Positions 492 to 62,845 of a stretch of DNA of 64,000 bases are shown piece after piece. The stretch lies in contig LDOQ01000166.1 in the NCBI GenBank assembly GCA_001887945.1, positions 1 to 64,000 on the forward strand. Reading direction: 5' to 3'. This stretch comes from Spraguea lophii (taxonomy: Eukaryota > Microsporidia > Spragueidae). The position numbers were made by a program, and so were the translations under genes. Every line of letters begins with the position of its first letter. Positions within the stretch are counted from its first letter, which is position 1. Under the pieces are notes generated by a model. The model did not search any database. It saw only the letters and a program-made list of their open reading frames with translations, and was not told the DNA's origin.

Positions 492-567
492 AAAAACAAT
501 GTAACTTTCAAACTTTAAGAGAAGAAATATTATAGAAATGAAATCCTCTTGTATCATTTTTTTTACT

Positions 568-745
568 AATAAAATTTTTATTTATTAAAGCTTTCTGGCC
601 GGTTGTGACCTACTATGGTTTGTGACCTTCAGTTCCTCGAGCGAATCCAAGCTTGTACTAACTGGTTTCGCTACAGATATGCATTAATCTCATCTTACCT
701 TATGCTCCAGAGTGTTAAGGTTTTGCGTCCGGTGTACGTCATCCT
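568..745 (-). mobile_element. SINE copy A, 5'-truncated
   Basis: This fragment carries the 3' part of the tRNA-derived SINE family on the minus strand. Recognisable landmarks are the tail region (revcomp of TTTTTATTTATTAAAGCTT), the CCGGCC block, the GGTTTGTGACC block, the GCATTAATCTCATCTTACC block and the GTGTACGTCATCC block. The tRNA head with the A and B boxes is missing. Truncation at the 5' end is typical of reverse-transcribed insertions. Confidence 0.8.
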
Positions 746-1169
746 CTTGTACCACGAATGAAAAATATTGTTTAAAAAGAAACACGGTGTCTTTATAATT
801 AAATCGTTTTCTTATTTATTAGCTAATTAAAAATTGGAAGACATCATTCTGTTACGAGGAAAAAGATCAAAATATATGGATGGGTTCGTTTTATGAAGTT
901 TAATATATTTTTAAAAATTTTAATTATTATATTAATATATTATTCTAAAACCTTAAATAAGAATAAATAAAAGTTTATTTGATAAATTAATGTTTAAAAA
1001 TAACATTTTTGAACAAACTATTATTAACCTTGCCGAAACATTAAAATTAAATATTATTGATGATTAAATATTTTGAACAAATCTACCTGATTTTTTTTAA
1101 AAACAAGAAAATAAACCATATTAAAAAATCTGTTTAAAAATAAAATTTACTGCTTACCTGAATATTTTT

Positions 1170-1846: not shown

Positions 1847-2313
1847 GTCTGCTTGGCCTGGCGGTTGTGGAGTGGTAACCAAAGTCCAAACTTAACAGGT
1901 TTGGATTCTTCACCCCAGGAGAAATTTCAAAAAAATAATAGTAAAAGATAGAAAAGAAAAGAAAAGTTGTTGAGTGGGTGGGGGTTCGATATTGCAACAT
2001 TATTTGTGTCTTGTATGATGGTTCCATCATTAGATTAAGGTAGTGTTTAATTGGTGTAATTGCAATCCCTGTATTTGTTTGTGACCGGCCAGTATTATGT
2101 CAAGAAAGAAGTTGACAATTTCTAAAAAACTGAAAAAAGGATGACGACGTGCACCATACGCAAAACACCAACGCCCGGGGCATAAGGTAAGATGGGATTA
2201 ATGCATATCTGCGGTGAAACTAGTTAGTACAAATTTGACTACGTTTTAAGAACAAAAGATCATGACCATTGTAAGTCACCACCACCAGGAAACTTATATA
2301 AATAAAAGTTTTA
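1847..2313 (+). mobile_element. SINE copy B, full-length, part of an inverted pair
   Basis: The copy has the tRNA-like head (GCTTGGCCTGGCGGTTGTGG, a mutated A box), a degraded B box (GGTTTGGATTC), the purine-rich linker, the conserved body and the 3' end TATATAAATAAAAGTTTTAT. It lies head-to-tail against copy C, so the two form an inverted pair with a 166-bp spacer. Bases 2089-2232 are a perfect inverted match to 2566-2709 in copy C, although the rest of the two copies has diverged. Confidence 0.9.
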
Positions 2314-2479
2314 TAAAAAAATCGTTCAATTTTTAAAAATAAAACAAAAATATTTATAAAGTTTAAGAAATAATGTTAATTGTAGTAAAACCAGTTGTTA
2401 AAATTGTTGTTAACTATAATATAAGTATGATAGTTTCCTTTAACCCACGTAATATATTTATACTAACCTTATTTTTTTT

Positions 2480-2964
2480 ATGAAACTTTTATTTATAGAA
2501 GTTTTCTAACTGGTTATGACCTACAACAATGATCTATGATCATTTGTTCTTAAAACGTAGTCAACTTGTACTAACTAGTTTCACCGCAGATATGCATTAA
2601 TCCCATCTTACCTTATGCCCCGGGCGTTGGTGTTTTGCGTATGGTGCACGTCGTCATCCTTTTTTCAGTTTTTTAGAAATTGTCAACTTCTTTCTTGACA
2701 TAATACTGGTCGAATCACAAATTAATACAGTGATTGTAACTATCCCGGTTAAACACTACTTAAATTTAATAGTGGAACCGTCGGACAAGGCATAACTGAT
2801 GTTACATTATCGAACCCACTCGCTCACTCAACAACTTTTCTTTTCTATCTTTTATTTTTTTTATTATTTTTTTTTATTTTGAAATTTTTTCTGGATGAGG
2901 GATTCGAACCCGCCAGGCTTGAGGTTTGGTTACCACCACCCCACGATCACTGGGCCAGGCGGGA
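2480..2964 (-). mobile_element. SINE copy C, full-length, part of an inverted pair
   Basis: Read on the minus strand, the head starts TCCCGCCTGGCCCAGTGATC, with a good A box (TGGCCCAGTGA), and the B box GGTTCGAATCC is perfect. The body and 3' tail follow in the usual order. The head is better preserved than that of copy B, yet 144 bp of the body are identical between the two. That pattern points to conversion between the arms. Confidence 0.92.
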
Positions 2965-6988: not shown

Positions 6989-7454
6989 AGCCCGCTTGGT
7001 CAATTGGCCGTGGGGTTGTAACCAACTCAAAGCTCGGGGGTTCGAATCCCACCCCCAGAAGAATTTTCAAAAAAAAATAATAAAAAGCAAGAAGAGAAAA
7101 GAAAGGACGTTAAGTGTGTGAGAGTTTGATAACGAAGCATTAGCTGTGCCTTGTATGGCCACCCGTTACTAGATTAAAATAGTGTTTAGCTGGTGTAGTT
7201 GTAATCCCCGTATTAATTTGTGACTCGGCCAATATTATACCAAGAAAGAGATTGGGAATCTCTAAAAAGTTAGGAGCCGAGCGGCGTGCATCATACGTAA
7301 AACCATAACGCTCTGGAGCATAAGGTATATGGGATTAATGCATATCTGTAACGAAGCCAGTTAGTACAAACTTGGATATGCTTTGGGAACCGAAGATCAC
7401 AGACCATGGGAGGCCACAACCGGCTAGGGAATTTTAATAAATAAAAGTTCCATT
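6989..7454 (+). mobile_element. SINE copy D, full-length, well preserved
   Basis: The tRNA-like head starts GCCCGCTTGGTCAATTGGCC, with B box GGTTCGAATCC in the stem context GGGGG/CCCAC. Linker, body and the 3' end GGAATTTTAATAAATAAAAGTTCCATT follow. The right flank is A-rich (GTTAAAAAAAC). I could not define an unambiguous target-site duplication. It lies between the 5' end of the aldo-keto reductase and the 3' end of the next gene. Confidence 0.93.
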
Positions 7455-7567
7455 AGTTAAAAAAACCCAAAGTTTTTATATTTATATAACTCCCTACAAT
7501 TTTAAGAATATAATTAATATTTTTATAAACATAAAATACTTATACTTTGGTACTATTTAATTATTAC

Positions 7568-12183: not shown

Positions 12184-12842
12184 TATTTTTAAAGAAAAAA
12201 TATTTAATTCCCAAAAATATAAATTTATTATTTATTTTCGAATATTTTATAGAAAACAAAAATCAAAATAAACGTAGTATAAATTTTAATAAATAATATT
12301 GATAATTCAAATATATTATTTTAGATATTAAAATTTAGAACATTCCAAAAAAAACAAAATTTATTTATATTTTATGAGGATAAAAAGATAGAAATAAGTT
12401 ATCGAATACTATGGTACAAAGAGATTGTCTTCGTAATTTTTAACACACTATAGTATATGGTAAGATAAGGTTACTGATATGAATATTCAATAAAACTGGT
12501 ACAAATAAGTATTTATTTGAAAGAGTTAATAATCTTATACTTTGATGCCATAACTTATCAAAGTGTATTGGTTATAATTAAAACATTATTACTAAATTGT
12601 ATAATAATTTATAATACTATTTTAAATGTTCATACAGTTTTTATTTTGTTAAAGAAATAAAATATTAAATTATCATAATTTTTCAAAACTTATGCTATAA
12701 ACAAAGAAGAGAATATATTTATAATAATCAAATAAATATTATAATATTTAAAATAATATATATAATGTAATATAATCATAATATAGTGTAATTTTAAAAT
12801 AAAATATTTTGTTGATATGTTAAAATATAAGAATGTTCAAAT
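12184..12842. other. Divergent intergenic with a possible SINE trace
   Basis: This is the divergent spacer between PWP1 and GPI1. Around 12455-12515, ATGGTAAGATAAGGTTACTGA followed by AAACTGGTACAAATA recalls the family block in which GGTAAGATGAGATTAATGC is followed by AAACCAGTTAGTACAA, so a very old SINE remnant is possible. The rest is AT-rich without features. Confidence 0.3.
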
Positions 12843-16564: not shown

Positions 16565-17058
16565 GTCCCGCCTGGCCCAGTGGTCGTGGGGTGGTAACCA
16601 AACCCCAAGCCTGGCGGGTTCGAATCCCTCATCCAGAAAAAAATTTTCAAAACAAAAAAAAATAATAATAAACGGAGAAGAGAAGAAAAAGGTTGTTGAG
16701 TGGGTGAGGTTTCGATAGCGCAGCATAGCTGTGCCTTGTATGACGGCCCCGCTACTAGATTAAAGTAGTGTTCAGCTGATGTAGTTGCAATCCCTGTATT
16801 GATTTGTGACTCGGCCAATACTATGCAACGAAAGAGGCTGGGAATTCCTTAAGAGCTGGAAGTGGGGGCGGCGACGCGCACCATACGCAAAATCCTAACA
16901 CTCTGGAGCATAAGGTAAGATGAGATTAATGCATATCTGTAGTGAAACCAGTTAGTACAAGTTTAATGTCGCTCGAGGAACCGAAGGTCACAGACCATGG
17001 TAGGCCGCAACCGGCCAGGAAGCTTTGATAAATAAAAGTTTCATTCGTAAAAAAAAAA
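16565..17058 (+). mobile_element. SINE copy E, full-length with perfect target-site duplication
   Basis: This is the best copy of the family. The A box TGGCCCAGTGG is at 16573-16583 and the B box GGTTCGAATCC at 16617-16627, with normal tRNA spacing. An A/G-rich linker follows, then the conserved body and the end GATAAATAAAAGTTTCATT plus a short A-run. The 13-bp sequence GCAAAACAATTAA flanks it on both sides (16552-16564 and 17059-17071). A 13-bp perfect duplication with a 3' A-rich tail is the hallmark of LINE-mediated insertion. The insertion lies between GPI2 and UBA4. Short frames inside it are not genes. Confidence 0.96.
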
Positions 17059-26513: not shown

Positions 26514-26667
26514 GGGTAGATATAAATAAAAATATTTAATTTAGAATAAACATTAATAAAGAAATAATAAATATATCACCTAGATTATAATGTATATACT
26601 TTTAAGCAACAACGTGAAAAACGTTTTTATATTGTTAATTAAAAATAACATTTTTATTTGTTTTGTT

Positions 26668-27107
26668 AAATTTTTATTTATAGAAGTTTCCTAACCGATT
26701 ACAGCCTACCATGGTCTATATCTTCTGGTTCCTATTTAAACTTGCATTAACTGGTTTTACGGAATATATACATTGGCTCATTCTATCTTATGCATTAGGG
26801 AGTTATGATTTTGTGTATGATACACGACGACATCATCCTCCTGGGTTTTTAAAGATTCTTAACCTCTTTCTTGCTACAATGTTGACTGTATCACAAATTA
26901 ATACAAGAATTGCAATTACAACAGGTAAATATTACTTTAATCTACTAATAAGACCGTCATGCAAGACACGGCTAAACTATATTATCCAACCACACATACT
27001 CAACAGTCATTCTCTTCTATTTTTATTTCATTGAAAAATATTCTGGGTAGGATTCAAACTTGCTAGGCTTGGGATTTGGTTATCAAGATTATTCAACTAA
27101 GTGGGTT
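26668..27107 (-). mobile_element. SINE copy F, near full-length, diverged
   Basis: Read on the minus strand, a degraded head (CCCACTTAGTTGAATAATC) and a B box with changes (AGTTTGAATCC) lead into the linker and body, ending in CTATAAATAAAAATTT. Conserved landmarks include GCATAAGATAGAATGAGCC and TAGGCTGTAATCGG. The level of change suggests an older insertion than copies D or E. Confidence 0.88.
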
Positions 27108-30167: not shown

Positions 30168-30385
30168 AATGAAATTTTTTATTTGTAGAATTATTCTGAT
30201 TTCCGAGATTACCATGGGTTTTCAAGCCTGTTTTTGTATTCTTTTATTTGTATTTACAGGGCGATAAAACATATGAGTCAAATTCATATATTTTATGTTC
30301 TAGAGTATTATAGTTTCATGTATGGTTTATACCCACTAAACACTCATTTCTAAAGAATTGTCAACATCAACATAGGGATGAATAT
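30168..30385 (-). mobile_element. SINE copy G, 5'-truncated and decayed
   Basis: This is the 3' part of the SINE on the minus strand. Markers are the tail AATGAAATTTTTTATTTGTAG on plus, TTACCATGGGTTTTCAAGCC, the AAACATATGAGTC region, ATTTTATGTTCTAGAGTATTA, and TTTCTAAAGAATTGTCAAC. Substitutions are frequent and the tRNA head is not visible. Confidence 0.68.
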
Positions 30386-30879: not shown

Positions 30880-30996
30880 TGCTCCCTGTGGGATTCGAAC
30901 CCACGACCTCGGCGTATCTTAGCGATTGAAGCTATTTTTAGTTAGCTGGTTCTCAGCTTATAAGCACTGCGCTCTAACCGACTGAGCTAAGGGAGC
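30880..30996 (-). tRNA. tRNA-Ile (anticodon UAU) with a 43-nt intron
   Basis: Exon 1 is 30959-30996, the intron 30916-30958 and exon 2 30880-30915. Acceptor stem GCTCCCT/AGGGAGC with discriminator A, D arm GCTC/GAGC, and T arm GTGGG-TTCGAAT-CCCAC are all good. The anticodon loop CTTATA gives TAT, and the intron follows position 37 as in canonical introns. The anticodon stem CAGTG/CGCCG contains one A-C mismatch. Inside the intron AGCTG/CAGCT or AGCTA/TAGCT can pair. tRNA-Ile(UAU) is one of the few tRNAs known to have introns in microsporidia. Confidence 0.93.
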
Positions 30997-43734: not shown

Positions 43735-43930
43735 AGACAGAATGTGTTATATGCCAAATGTGTAATTTTTTAATGGGCCGATGTACATGAATATAGAATG
43801 AGATGAGATTAATGCATATCTCTGATGAAATTAGGTGATACAAATTTAGATGTGCTTTAGGAACTGAAGGGCATGGACCATGGTAGGTCGCAATCGGACA
43901 TAAAACTTCGATAAATAAAAGTTTTATTAA
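43735..43930 (+). mobile_element. SINE copy H, 5'-truncated
   Basis: The 3' half of the family is on plus: GAATGAGATGAGATTAATGC, ATATCTCTGATGAAATTAGG, TTTAGGAACTGAAGG, GACCATGGTAGGTCGCAATC and the end CGATAAATAAAAGTTTTATT. No A or B box is present. The tail is well kept, so the truncation probably happened at insertion. Confidence 0.88.
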
Positions 43931-43949
43931 TAAAAAAATAGTATAAATA

Positions 43950-55149: not shown

Positions 55150-55593
55150 AACTTATTTAACTGAACGTTTATGAAGTGGTAACCAAATCTCAAGCTTAAC
55201 GGATTCGAATCACTCACTCATCAAGAAGAATTTTCAAAAAACATAAAAAATAGATGGAGGAAGGAAAAAAGGATTTACGTGGGTTTGATAATGTAATATT
55301 AACCATGTCTTGTACAACGTTCTCACTATTAGGTTAAGTAGTTTTTAGCTAGTGTAATTGTAATTCCTATATTAATTTGTGATGCAGCCACTATTATAAT
55401 AATGAGAAGATCAAAATATTATTAAAGATGATCCAGTGACGATTGTACCATATACAAAGACATAACTCTCCACAACATAAAATAGGATGAGATTAATATA
55501 TATACACGTAAAATTAATTAATACAAGTTTAAGAGGAACCAAAAATCATAAGTTACAACCAACTAGAAAACTTCGATAAATAAAAATCTTATT
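55150..55593 (+). mobile_element. SINE copy I, near full-length, diverged
   Basis: The head is degraded (TGAACGTTTATGAAGTGGTA) but keeps GTGGTAACCAAATC and a B box close to consensus (GATTCGAATCA). Linker, body (AATTTGTGATGCAGCCACTAT, ATAAAATAGGATGAGATTAA) and the end CTTCGATAAATAAAAATCTT follow. It lies 64 bp beyond the 3' end of RNR2. Confidence 0.85.
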
Positions 55594-55656
55594 AAAAAAT
55601 AAAAAATGTTTGAAGAATTAAAAAGAATGGATAAAAATAGCTTATCCGATTTTTAA

Positions 55657-56975: not shown

Positions 56976-57420
56976 AGTTGTTTGGTCTAATGGTCGTGGA
57001 GTGGTAACCAAACCCTGAGCGTGCTGCGTTCGAATCACTCCTATAGAAAAATTTTCACAAAAAGAAATAATAGTAAAAGAATAATAGAGTGGGTGCTCAA
57101 TAGCGTCGCATTGGTTATGCCTTGTACGATGGCCCTATTACTAGATTAAAGCAATATTTAGCTGGTGTATCACAATCCCTGTATTGATTTGTGACCCAAC
57201 CTATACTATGCCAATAAGAAGATCTAAATATCATTAAAGATGATAGAATGATTATTATACCATACGCAAAATCCCAACTCATTGTAACATAAGATAAGAT
57301 TAGTGTATATCTGTAGTTAACCCAGTTAATACGAGCTTAAATGTGTTTTAAAAATTAAAGGTCATAAATTGCGATATATTACAACAGACCAGAAAATTTC
57401 TATAAATAAAATTTCAATAA
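56976..57420 (+). mobile_element. SINE copy J, full-length, moderately diverged
   Basis: The head TTTGGTCTAATGGTCGTGGA (A-box-like) and a good B-box core (GTTCGAATCAC) precede the linker and body. Landmarks are TGATTTGTGACCCAACCTAT, CCATACGCAAAATCCCAA and AACCCAGTTAATACGAGC. The end is TCTATAAATAAAATTTCAAT. Confidence 0.9.
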
Positions 57421-59404: not shown

Positions 59405-62041
59405 TTATTCAGAAAGATAACCCATTGATTTTAAAACTAAATAAGCACCTTCATCTTGTATCCTAAAAATGTAATGTTCAGTAACTTCATCGTATTCAAA
59501 TAAATTATTCAAATCTAAATCTTCTCCAAATATACTGATTAAATACCCTCTTAACCGGTTATATAAAATTAAACCATATTTTTCATTTTTCAGATATTCG
59601 TTCATTTCATTTATTATTGATTGGAAAGTAAATTTACTGAAAAACTGTTCAAGAATGTATTTTTTATCGTAAAGCTGTCGTATTTTTGACATATTACCAT
59701 GTAAATTTGGTACTTTTTCGAATCCAAGTTCTGCTGATAATATATTTCTCCACATTAAGAATGTTTCTCGTTCTTCACCCTCATCTCTGCCAGTAGTGAT
59801 TGATTCAAGTACAGCAAATTTATGATTTGTTATTATTTCTATTATTTTATGTTCAGCACTACTACAGTCATCGTTTAATTTAAGTCTCATATATGCTTCT
59901 ATATATGCTTCACCTTGTCCATCTAAACAATGAATATTATCATTAGTAGTATTTATTTTAAAATTCAATGAGTGTAAAAGTCTGACGAGTGTATCATTTA
60001 CAAATTCTTGTTGTTCTGGTAACAATTCAACCATCATTATAACAACGGCTTCAAAATAATCAATAATTGAATTTGTTTTTTGATACTCCCTAGGTGCTGA
60101 TGATTCTTGAAATTGATTCTCATCATAACAATAGTATTGATCTATTCGATTTAACAAAAAGTCTAATTTTTGTTCGCGTTTATATGTTATATATTCTGAA
60201 ATATATTTTAACATATCTTCAACTTGCTTTTTTGTTTTTGTATGTTTTTCTGGTTTAAATGATTTACATAATTTTATCTTATCTAAATTCAATTTATTAC
60301 TAATATTAAGATTGTCATAAAAGTTTTTAACATTTAAATCAAGGTTGATGTATTCAAGTCTTCTTTCTCCATTATATCTGATATTTGTTAAAACGTCATT
60401 ATTTACTTCTTCAATGCCAATCAATCCCGATTCCCAATTGACATAATTCATTTGTCGTTGTAAAGGATTATTAAGTAGATCTATTTGTAAATTCATATTG
60501 CTCATATTATTAATGTTAATTGGGAGAAATACTATACGATTGGTGTATAATCTTAGTTTCTCAAGAGTATTTATATTAAATATACTACCAACTATTGTAT
60601 ATATTTGATTATATGATAAATCTATTACTTTTAATGAATTATTTGTTCCAAAAACATTTTCAAGGACAACTATTTGATTGCGGTGTGCTATAAAAGTCTC
60701 TAAGTTGGAAAACTTGAATATACTTTGAGGTATTCTGGTTAAAAAACATGTAGATAAATCCAAATACGTAATTTTAGAATCGGTTGGTACATGTTCGAAT
60801 ATATCAATATTACCATCAAACTGTTGTTTACAACTGATATTTAATTTGAATATTCTATTGTAATAGAATATGTTCTGTAATACACTTATATCTTTAAGAT
60901 ATAAATTAAGATATAATGAATCATCGTCACTATAAGGATATTGCTCGATCTCTGTAAACATGTTATTAGATATAATACAAATTCCAACTCGGTTTAATAT
61001 TTTAAAAATATTTCTGTCGAGTTTAGAAAATTTATTTTTAGACAAATTAATATGTTCCAAATTTTGTAATGAATTATCAGAAATTGATATTTCATGTATT
61101 ATATTTCCATAAAGATGTAATTTCATCAGAGTATTAAACATTCCATCCATGATAATTAATTTTTCAATATGGTTCAATGACATACATAACACTTTTAGAT
61201 TAGAAAAGGATTGTAATGTATGGGGTATTTCTTCAAATAAATTTTGTGTGAGATCGAGTTCTTCTAAATTTATAAAATTTAAAAAAATTCTAGGTAAATC
61301 CCTTAAATTATTACCACAAAGATATAAAAATTTTAAACATTTATAAGTTTCACATTGTAAATCGGCATTAGAATCTTGATTAAACTCTGCTTCATTTGGA
61401 TTAGAAGGCACATCTGAATATTCGGAATGACAAGTGAGGGTATTATTTGGAAATAATGGTTTGTTATATGACAAATCTAAATTTTTCAGATTTGTTAATC
61501 TAAACAAGTTTAGATTAATGCTAATTAGAGTCTCAAAGCAGCTAATAAAAAAATTTTCAAGTGCATTCATTTGGATTATTTCAGAAGGTATTGTTTCAAT
61601 CTTATTATCGATTAGATAAAGGACTTTCAATTTCGGTAATAAAAAAAGAACTTTGGGAAATTCTTTAAATTTATTTCCTTTTAAATATAGCTCTTCTAAT
61701 TCCTTAATTTTTTCGAATTGAATTGGTAATGTTGATATATTGAGATCATTAAGTTTTAGAATTTTAAGATTATCAATATCACAAAAAAATTTAGGAAGTA
61801 TATTATAATATGTTTCTGGATCAAAGTTATGTAAACTTTTTATCTCTATTATTTTACCAGTTGTATTGTGTTCTTGTACTATAAATTTGCATGAGAAATC
61901 AGGATTATTCTTAATGTCACTAAATAACTCGGTTTCATAAGGATGAGGTATTAATTCTTGTACAACATCATAATTCTTAGAACTTATTGTATATGTTCTA
62001 CAGTTCATCAAAGATAAAAATAATAGCAATAGAAAATTCAT
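59405..62041 (-). CDS. Large secreted leucine-rich-repeat protein
   Basis: The 878-residue product has a clear signal peptide (MNFLLLLFLSLMNCRTYT). An N-terminal cap of about 70 residues precedes roughly 17-20 LRR units between about 80 and 560, of the type L-x-x-L-x-L-x-x-N-x-[IL]-x-x-[IL]-P (for example LKVLYLIDNKIETIPSEII, LEELDLTQNLFEEIPHTL). A C-terminal non-LRR helical domain of about 300 residues follows. No membrane anchor is seen after the leader. Secreted LRR families are known in Nosema-type microsporidia and are candidate host-interaction proteins. ACCCCCTATTTTA precedes ATG. Confidence 0.85.
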   Translation of the reverse strand: MNFLLLLFLSLMNCRTYTISSKNYDVVQELIPHPYETELFSDIKNNPDFSCKFIVQEHNTTGKIIEIKSLHNFDPETYYNILPKFFCDIDNLKILKLNDLNISTLPIQFEKIKELEELYLKGNKFKEFPKVLFLLPKLKVLYLIDNKIETIPSEIIQMNALENFFISCFETLISINLNLFRLTNLKNLDLSYNKPLFPNNTLTCHSEYSDVPSNPNEAEFNQDSNADLQCETYKCLKFLYLCGNNLRDLPRIFLNFINLEELDLTQNLFEEIPHTLQSFSNLKVLCMSLNHIEKLIIMDGMFNTLMKLHLYGNIIHEISISDNSLQNLEHINLSKNKFSKLDRNIFKILNRVGICIISNNMFTEIEQYPYSDDDSLYLNLYLKDISVLQNIFYYNRIFKLNISCKQQFDGNIDIFEHVPTDSKITYLDLSTCFLTRIPQSIFKFSNLETFIAHRNQIVVLENVFGTNNSLKVIDLSYNQIYTIVGSIFNINTLEKLRLYTNRIVFLPININNMSNMNLQIDLLNNPLQRQMNYVNWESGLIGIEEVNNDVLTNIRYNGERRLEYINLDLNVKNFYDNLNISNKLNLDKIKLCKSFKPEKHTKTKKQVEDMLKYISEYITYKREQKLDFLLNRIDQYYCYDENQFQESSAPREYQKTNSIIDYFEAVVIMMVELLPEQQEFVNDTLVRLLHSLNFKINTTNDNIHCLDGQGEAYIEAYMRLKLNDDCSSAEHKIIEIITNHKFAVLESITTGRDEGEERETFLMWRNILSAELGFEKVPNLHGNMSKIRQLYDKKYILEQFFSKFTFQSIINEMNEYLKNEKYGLILYNRLRGYLISIFGEDLDLNNLFEYDEVTEHYIFRIQDEGAYLVLKSMGYLSE

Positions 62042-62387: not shown

Positions 62388-62845
62388 ATTTTTTTATTTA
62401 TCGAGACTTCCTGGGCAGTTACAATTTAACCAGGTCTATACCCTTTGATTCCCAAAGCACATCTAAATTTGTACTGGCTAATTTCGCTACAAATATGCAT
62501 TAATTTCATTTCATCCTATGCTCCAGCATATTGGGATTTTGCGTATGGTGCACGCTACTGTCCCCTTAGCTTTTTAAAGATTCCCAACCTTTTTCTTGAC
62601 ATAGTATTGTTGAGTCACAAATCAATACGGGATTGCAACTACATCAGCCAAACATTACTTTAATCTAGTAATGGCCCATCATACAAGATACAGCCAATGC
62701 TATGTTATCGAACCCTCACCCATTCAACAATTTTTCTCTTCTTTCTACTTTTTTATTTTTTTCTGAAAATTCTTCTAAATGAGGGATTCGAACCCGCCAT
62801 GCTTAGGTTTAATTACCACCTCATGATTACCGGGTTAAGTGGGTC
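62388..62845 (-). mobile_element. SINE copy K, full-length
   Basis: Read on the minus strand, the head GACCCACTTAACCCGGTAAT is mutated, and the B box is perfect (GGTTCGAATCC in the context GCGGGTTCGAATCCCTC). The body contains GTGCACCATACGCAAAATCC, TGGAGCATAGGATGAAAT and the CTTTGGGAATC block. It ends in GATAAATAAAAAAATTTC. Confidence 0.9.

Follow-up and report, generated by a model that had tools for sequence, protein, structure and literature searches.

The genome of the microsporidian Spraguea lophii carries a family of short interspersed elements (SINEs) of about 490 bp, which very probably belongs to the stringent type, combining a head of the RNA polymerase III (Pol III) type with a tail that resembles the 3' UTR of a LINE in the same genome, and which has undergone a recent burst. 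The family was characterized in a stretch of 64,000 bp (contig LDOQ01000166.1, positions 1 to 64,000; hereafter the window) with a GC content of 23.2%, and by genome-wide searches of the S. lophii assembly, comprised of 73 contigs and 5.27 Mb. The published genome has a GC content of 23.4% and an estimated size of 6.2-7.3 Mb (PMC3749934). A 584-aa helicase encoded in the window is 100% identical to a protein of S. lophii 42_110, which points to this species or a very close strain; the next match has 48% identity over 99%, three shorter ones reach 50-51%, and those of the subsequent matches that carry a name, as many do not, are microsporidian down to about rank 86. The SINE reading, put forward in a first-pass annotation of the window, is supported by target-site duplications around most near-full-length copies, by a Pol III-type internal promoter in the head, and by a LINE whose 3' end matches that of the SINE in part.

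Ten SINE copies were found in the window, both by BLAST with the copy at 16565-17058 and with an nhmmer profile (E≤1e-3), while the reversed window gave no match to the profile (Table 1). Together they span 3,971 bases, or 6.2% of the window, where the first-pass annotation had given about 7%. Ten of the eleven clear copies listed in that annotation are strongly recovered by the profile; the eleventh (30168-30385) is seen with the filters off only, and is therefore at best a much decayed SINE copy. The three further decayed copies that it mentioned, for which it gave no coordinates, were not confirmed, the additional matches obtained with the filters off being 12436-12477 (E 0.002) and seven others at E 0.3 to 9. 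Two of the ten strong copies are truncated at the 5' end and have an intact 3' end.

None of the ten strong copies overlaps any of the 37 ORFs of at least 100 aa that make up 61% of the window. This set consists of the 41 such ORFs listed, minus three nested in others and minus an ORF of 107 aa inside the copy at 26666-27085, the sole one within a SINE copy. Among the other features of the window are a tRNA-Ile (TAT) gene at 30880-30996 (minus strand), detected by Rfam and missed by ARAGORN, whose length of 117 bp indicates that an intron is probably present, and an 878-aa leucine-rich-repeat protein encoded at 59405-62041 (minus strand); a leucine-rich-repeat family is expanded in the published S. 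lophii genome (PMC3749934).

Table 1. SINE copies of the window and parts of the copy at 16565..17058, in window coordinates.
Feature	Position	Strand	Basis or remark
Youngest full-length SINE copy of the window	16565..17058	+	BLAST, profile (16567-17050 by nhmmer); 100% identical twin on contig C30
5'-truncated SINE copy, model 292-480	564..748	-	Profile
Old SINE copy	1849..2315	+	Profile, divergence
Old SINE copy	2479..2963	-	Profile, divergence
Old SINE copy	6991..7457	+	Profile, divergence
Old SINE copy	26666..27085	-	Profile, divergence
Possible much decayed SINE piece, weak	30178..30369	-	Profile with filters off, E 3.8e-5
5'-truncated SINE copy, model 337-480	43789..43932	+	Profile
Old SINE copy	55167..55594	+	Profile, divergence
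Old SINE copy	56980..57418	+	Profile, divergence
Old SINE copy	62392..62843	-	Profile, divergence
Left target-site duplication GCAAAACAATTAA	16552..16564	+	
A box TGGCCCAGTGG	16573..16583	+	SINE position 9, 16.8 bits, matrix from host tRNAs
B box GGTTCGAATCC	16617..16627	+	SINE position 53, 19.7 bits, host-tRNA matrix
TTTT past the head, sole run of at least four T in the copy	16644..16647	+	
LINE-like tail block, two small hairpins	16966..17020	+	48/55 bases as in the LINE 3' UTR at L051
3'-terminal motif ATAAATAAAAGTTTC, like the LINE 3' terminus	17028..17042	+	Not significant by itself
3'-end A-run	17049..17058	+	
Right target-site duplication GCAAAACAATTAA	17059..17071	+	

The unit has constant ends and contains no long coding frame, and in its best copy the A box, B box, linker, body and 3' end follow each other in the order originally described, each where it had been placed. 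Among 41 near-full-length copies (query start ≤5, end ≥480), which are mostly best matches and thus biased to young copies, 31 are flanked by target-site duplications of at least 12 bp, versus 3 of 397 mismatched flank pairs; for duplications of at least 10 bp, the numbers are 33 of 41 copies and 11 of 397 pairs. The length of the duplications is variable, mostly 12-17 bp. The eight copies with a duplication below 10 bp are two old window copies, three copies from inversions (see below) and three others, one each at loci L078, L007 and L076. All 31 copies with clear duplications have an A-run at their 3' end, which is pure in 25 of them and includes one or two other bases in six; since this run makes the left border of the duplication indistinct, no endonuclease target motif was read from the 31 contexts. 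The flanks of different loci seldom match, the copies end at the same two boundaries with no common extension beyond the unit, and duplications are present around young copies other than the one in the window, the latter two being among the points on which the first-pass annotation had made its reading depend.

The A and B boxes of the head reach a combined score of 36.5 with a matrix derived from host tRNAs (46 distinct out of 54 sequences given), compared with 19.7-36.3 for the 46 tRNAs that made the matrix. None of 1000 shuffles scored as high (best 19.6), and the best of 428 background windows scored 16.3. Of seven older copies in the window, three keep a score of 21-30 and four are down to 8-12. 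A TTTT and no longer T-run is found in 36 of 40 SINE copies, 35 of which have it at positions 74-80, the remainder being one copy with a run of five T and three with neither. A TTTT at this place could shorten Pol III transcripts, an objection that is lessened, not removed, by the host tRNA genes: in 20 of 22, the first run of four or more T contains at least five.

A tRNA fold was not seen in the SINE head (folding z -0.4). With Rfam at a lax threshold (E≤10), the young copy gave no tRNA and four weak matches, the best of which by E-value (0.089) was to the T-loop of tmRNA, over 13 bases. No convincing parent was found among 55 aligned tRNA sequences (52 fetched and three from the window; 57 had been found, and two with the same score and length as another listed gene were dropped), the best being Lys-CTT with a score of 11. 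The first-pass term "tRNA-derived" therefore fits the boxes, which are tRNA-like, and finds no counterpart in a fold, in an Rfam tRNA match of the young copy or in a close host tRNA; folding the head with a tRNA model, which it had suggested as a way to the parent, named none. The promoter of the head is of the tRNA type, and it is the A and B boxes that point to a possible tRNA ancestry. A SINE-like head, from the A box on, was also noted about 8 bases past a tRNA-Ala gene on contig C45 (L140, C45:103444-103563). A general preference of the SINE for tRNA genes, for which the lists of positions were inspected by eye, is not claimed.

A search of the genome with the reverse transcriptase model RVT_1 identified nine places. 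Several of them were set aside as partner of the SINE, their frames looking, as judged by appearance, like those of Gypsy-like LTR retrotransposons. Frames of this kind are located at C73:40003-40479, C44:27834-28307 and C48:16630-17118, two of the three having no stops in the matched stretch. At C2:66528-67271, a reverse-transcriptase match lies within an Asn-rich open frame of 1239 aa, which might encode telomerase. A decayed reverse transcriptase on contig C5 (L048) showed no DNA match to the LINE described below.

The candidate partner is represented by a LINE frame of 479 aa right at the beginning of contig C72, which contains an endonuclease-like region and a reverse-transcriptase match (Pfam: Exo_endo_phos_2, E 0.0019; RVT_1, E 0.0018 at the contig end; both below the curated cut-offs). 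This copy runs off the contig, and no full-length LINE was seen in the assembly. A search against the PDB returned matches to human L1 ORF2 with E about 1e-9. The nearest homologue (P0001; 31% identity over 95%) carries an endonuclease domain, and other homologues from genomes and metagenomes show identities of up to 39% at lower coverage, with the endonuclease and reverse-transcriptase domains occurring together in three of them (P0009, P0012 and P0017). Relatives of this LINE are located on contigs C48, C21 and C1, and four LINE pieces gave no match to Pfam. About 0.9 kb beyond the relative on C48 lies a full-length SINE that is 96.6% identical to the window copy. On C1 a remnant of the reverse transcriptase is followed by a 3' UTR, and the same UTR is found on C21 behind another open frame.

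When this 3' UTR was searched for in the genome, at least 41 matches were obtained (from the best 40 of 108 candidates), of which 16 extend beyond a SINE-like block and 25 consist of the block alone, which is the tail of the SINE. In 6 of the 16 places, the sequence upstream of the LINE 3' UTR contains an open frame bearing a C-x2-C...H...C motif. Two further observations were made on C21: a 155-aa frame (L050, 159-623), with no Pfam match, resembles the C-terminal part of another LINE, distinct from this one, and a 68-base piece (L047, 2009-2076), 98.5% identical to the LINE on C72, directly follows a LINE 3'-end A-run. A subtelomeric location of the LINEs was considered, as several LINE pieces lie near contig ends, and rejected, since SINEs do likewise; these positions probably reflect assembly breakage.

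Between the LINE 3' UTR at L051 and SINE positions 402-456, the aligned bases give a score of 75, compared with 43 for the best of 500 shuffles. The likeness of the block to the window SINE ranges from 71 to 86% over nine aligned LINE tails, and the block is retained in every one of them as well as in the tails of both young and older SINE copies. Both elements end in a similar terminal motif and an A-run (nine LINE and five SINE tails aligned), the motif taken alone being not significant against shuffles (20-24 vs maxima of 28-29). The shared block is internal, ending about 135 bases before the LINE end and about 38 before the SINE end, so that the loss of about 97 bases must be assumed; the LINE stretch missing from the SINE measures 96-99 bases in nine LINE copies. 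The SINE tail has a folding z of -2.3, with 4 of 200 shuffles as good. Support for the two hairpins is thin: in an alignment of which one row is a whole SINE copy, two of the 12 base pairs show changes in both partners, and covariation comes out slightly unfavourable (+0.72). The search for a LINE with a SINE-like 3' end, proposed in the first-pass annotation, has led to one that matches in part, and judging from these similarities the LINE is likely to be the partner of the SINE and probably mobilises it.

Genome-wide, at least 40 near-full-length matches at 97-100% identity, the window copy included, are spread over many contigs (from the best 40 of 455 candidates). Allowing up to three mismatches, a 24-base pattern of the body occurs at 258 places, a 32-base pattern of the head at 118 and a 32-base pattern of the tail at 138, the reversed control of each giving 0. 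Within the window the body pattern finds five places versus ten profile copies, which indicates that old copies escape the pattern. The family is estimated at about 800-900 copies, old ones included, by extrapolation from the ten copies of the 64-kb window and from 15 more that were met incidentally in the flanks of 29 loci. These flanks total 86 kb, overlap in some cases and may be richer in SINEs than average. Among these 25 copies, which were not picked by rank, divergence from the consensus was 2.5-3.5% in four, 11.9% in one and at least 15% in 20. The family is made up of one old wave and one recent burst, the latter being further indicated by the identical twin of the window copy and by the matches at 97-100%. 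The GC content is about 0.45 in the young SINE and 0.43 in the LINE frame versus 0.23 in the window, so that the GC content of both elements is roughly double that of the genome; the least diverged SINE copies are near 0.45 and the most diverged at 0.27-0.33, which suggests that old copies have drifted to AT. An exact 24-mer of the SINE body was found neither in viral_contigs nor in genome_contigs, an absence that means little as these are viral and prokaryote collections.

Three other explanations were weighed against a SINE mobilised through a tail shared with its LINE. A constant unit present in many copies would also be expected of a miniature DNA transposon, a solo LTR or a segmental duplication, but such an origin can hardly be entertained for an element with duplications of varying length, an A-run, flanks that rarely match between loci, an internal Pol III-type promoter, and two window copies truncated at the 5' end with the 3' end intact. 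It is improbable, if less so, that the SINE was moved by a different LINE through its A-run, the shared block being a relic or the result of a transfer from SINE to LINE: the A-run of the 31 copies with clear duplications, the internal position of the block in the LINE UTR and the second LINE-like frame on C21, itself lacking a Pfam match, would agree with this, whereas the conservation of the block in every aligned LINE tail and in SINE tails of different age, together with the similar motif at the end of both elements, argues against it.

The origin of the head is a separate matter, and here an alternative deserves more weight, though we still regard it as doubtful: the head may come from no tRNA of this organism, either because a foreign tRNA was taken up or because a promoter converged on the A and B boxes. 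The poor alignment with all 55 host tRNAs, the lack of an Rfam tRNA match in the young copy at E≤10, and the GC content of the young SINE and the LINE frame, so far above that of the window, are in line with this possibility. Against it stand the two boxes and their spacing, which are tRNA-like, and the fact that tRNA folding is commonly lost in SINEs.

Under the preferred reading of a stringent-type SINE, RNA polymerase III would transcribe the element from its head, as expected from the A and B box. The tail would descend from the LINE 3' UTR by loss of the internal stretch, its likeness to that UTR being observed and its descent deduced, and the LINE reverse transcriptase would recognise the shared block with its two small hairpins near the A-run. 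The LINE enzyme would nick the target, prime the first strand at the A-run and leave the duplications, which are the observed products of this putative activity. The family would have spread in an old wave followed by the recent burst, in the window between genes, and in at least two places SINE pairs would subsequently have recombined, inverting a short segment.

These two places are inverted SINE pairs with exchanged duplications: L068 (C45, about 92.4-93.7 kb), where the exchanged duplications are of 13 and 14 bp and those of other copy pairs at most 11, and L018 (C1, about 142.8-144.3 kb), where duplications of 14 and 12 bp were read by eye and the second SINE copy is 5'-truncated. As exchanged duplications are expected when a segment is inverted by SINE-SINE recombination, both look to have undergone short SINE-mediated inversions. 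Among the matches listed, contigs C15, C25, C54, C56, C60, C22, C36, C46, C47, C48 and others start within or beside a SINE, the match being at contig positions 56-87 in all of the first five, as does the end of C50. The assembly thus seems to be broken by the repeat, and the SINE may explain part of the breakage of the S. lophii assembly.

LINE families are known in Microsporidia from a study whose main text does not contain the word SINE (PMC4202319). For S. lophii, Campbell and colleagues reported four non-LTR retrotransposons among the transcripts, as well as RNAi genes and karyotypes that vary between isolates, and no word beginning with SINE occurs in the accessible part of their article (PMC3749934). 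A table row for Nosema bombycis lists "SINE" with 28,669 bp, or 0.18%; this is a class label, for which the accessible part of the source gives neither a family nor a sequence nor a structure (PMC3614468), whereas the S. lophii family makes up 6.2% of the window. The accessible part of PMC6416283 mentions Microsporidia once and no microsporidian SINE. By title and abstract, no described microsporidian SINE family was found among the open-licence papers listed, an absence to be taken as provisional. The S. lophii element is likely a new SINE family with a likely LINE partner, unexpected in this host. Microsporidia are a textbook case of genome shrinkage, and several hundred SINE copies, a recent burst and a likely LINE within a genome of 6.2-7.3 Mb provide a compact natural system in which to ask by what route a SINE comes to use a LINE, what Pol III and RNAi do to such an element, and in what way repeats reshape a reduced genome. 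As a tentative extension, which we consider rather less likely than its opposite, the burst could be under way at present, driven by a LINE that came from outside, the SINE (about 6% of the DNA) being a main agent of rearrangement and possibly underlying the variable karyotypes; no SINE/LINE partnership would have been documented in Microsporidia before this one.

Among fungal SINEs, AfuSINE2 of Aspergillus fumigatus is described with duplications measuring 4-14 bp and with different tRNAs as parents (PMC5063351). Compared by description only, the S. lophii SINE shares with elements of this type the tRNA-related head, the short duplications and the fungal genome, and differs in that its duplications are mostly of 12-17 bp and its head has no identifiable parent tRNA. 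Stringent-type tRNA SINEs share their 3' tail with a partner LINE, as in the pair UnaSINE1/UnaL2 of eel. Likened to such pairs by description and not by sequence, the S. lophii SINE is distinguished by its microsporidian host and by a tail that looks like the LINE end with about 97 bases of its interior missing; in common with them it has a Pol III-type head, an unrelated body, target-site duplications, and a hairpin-forming tail that recurs in a LINE of the same genome.
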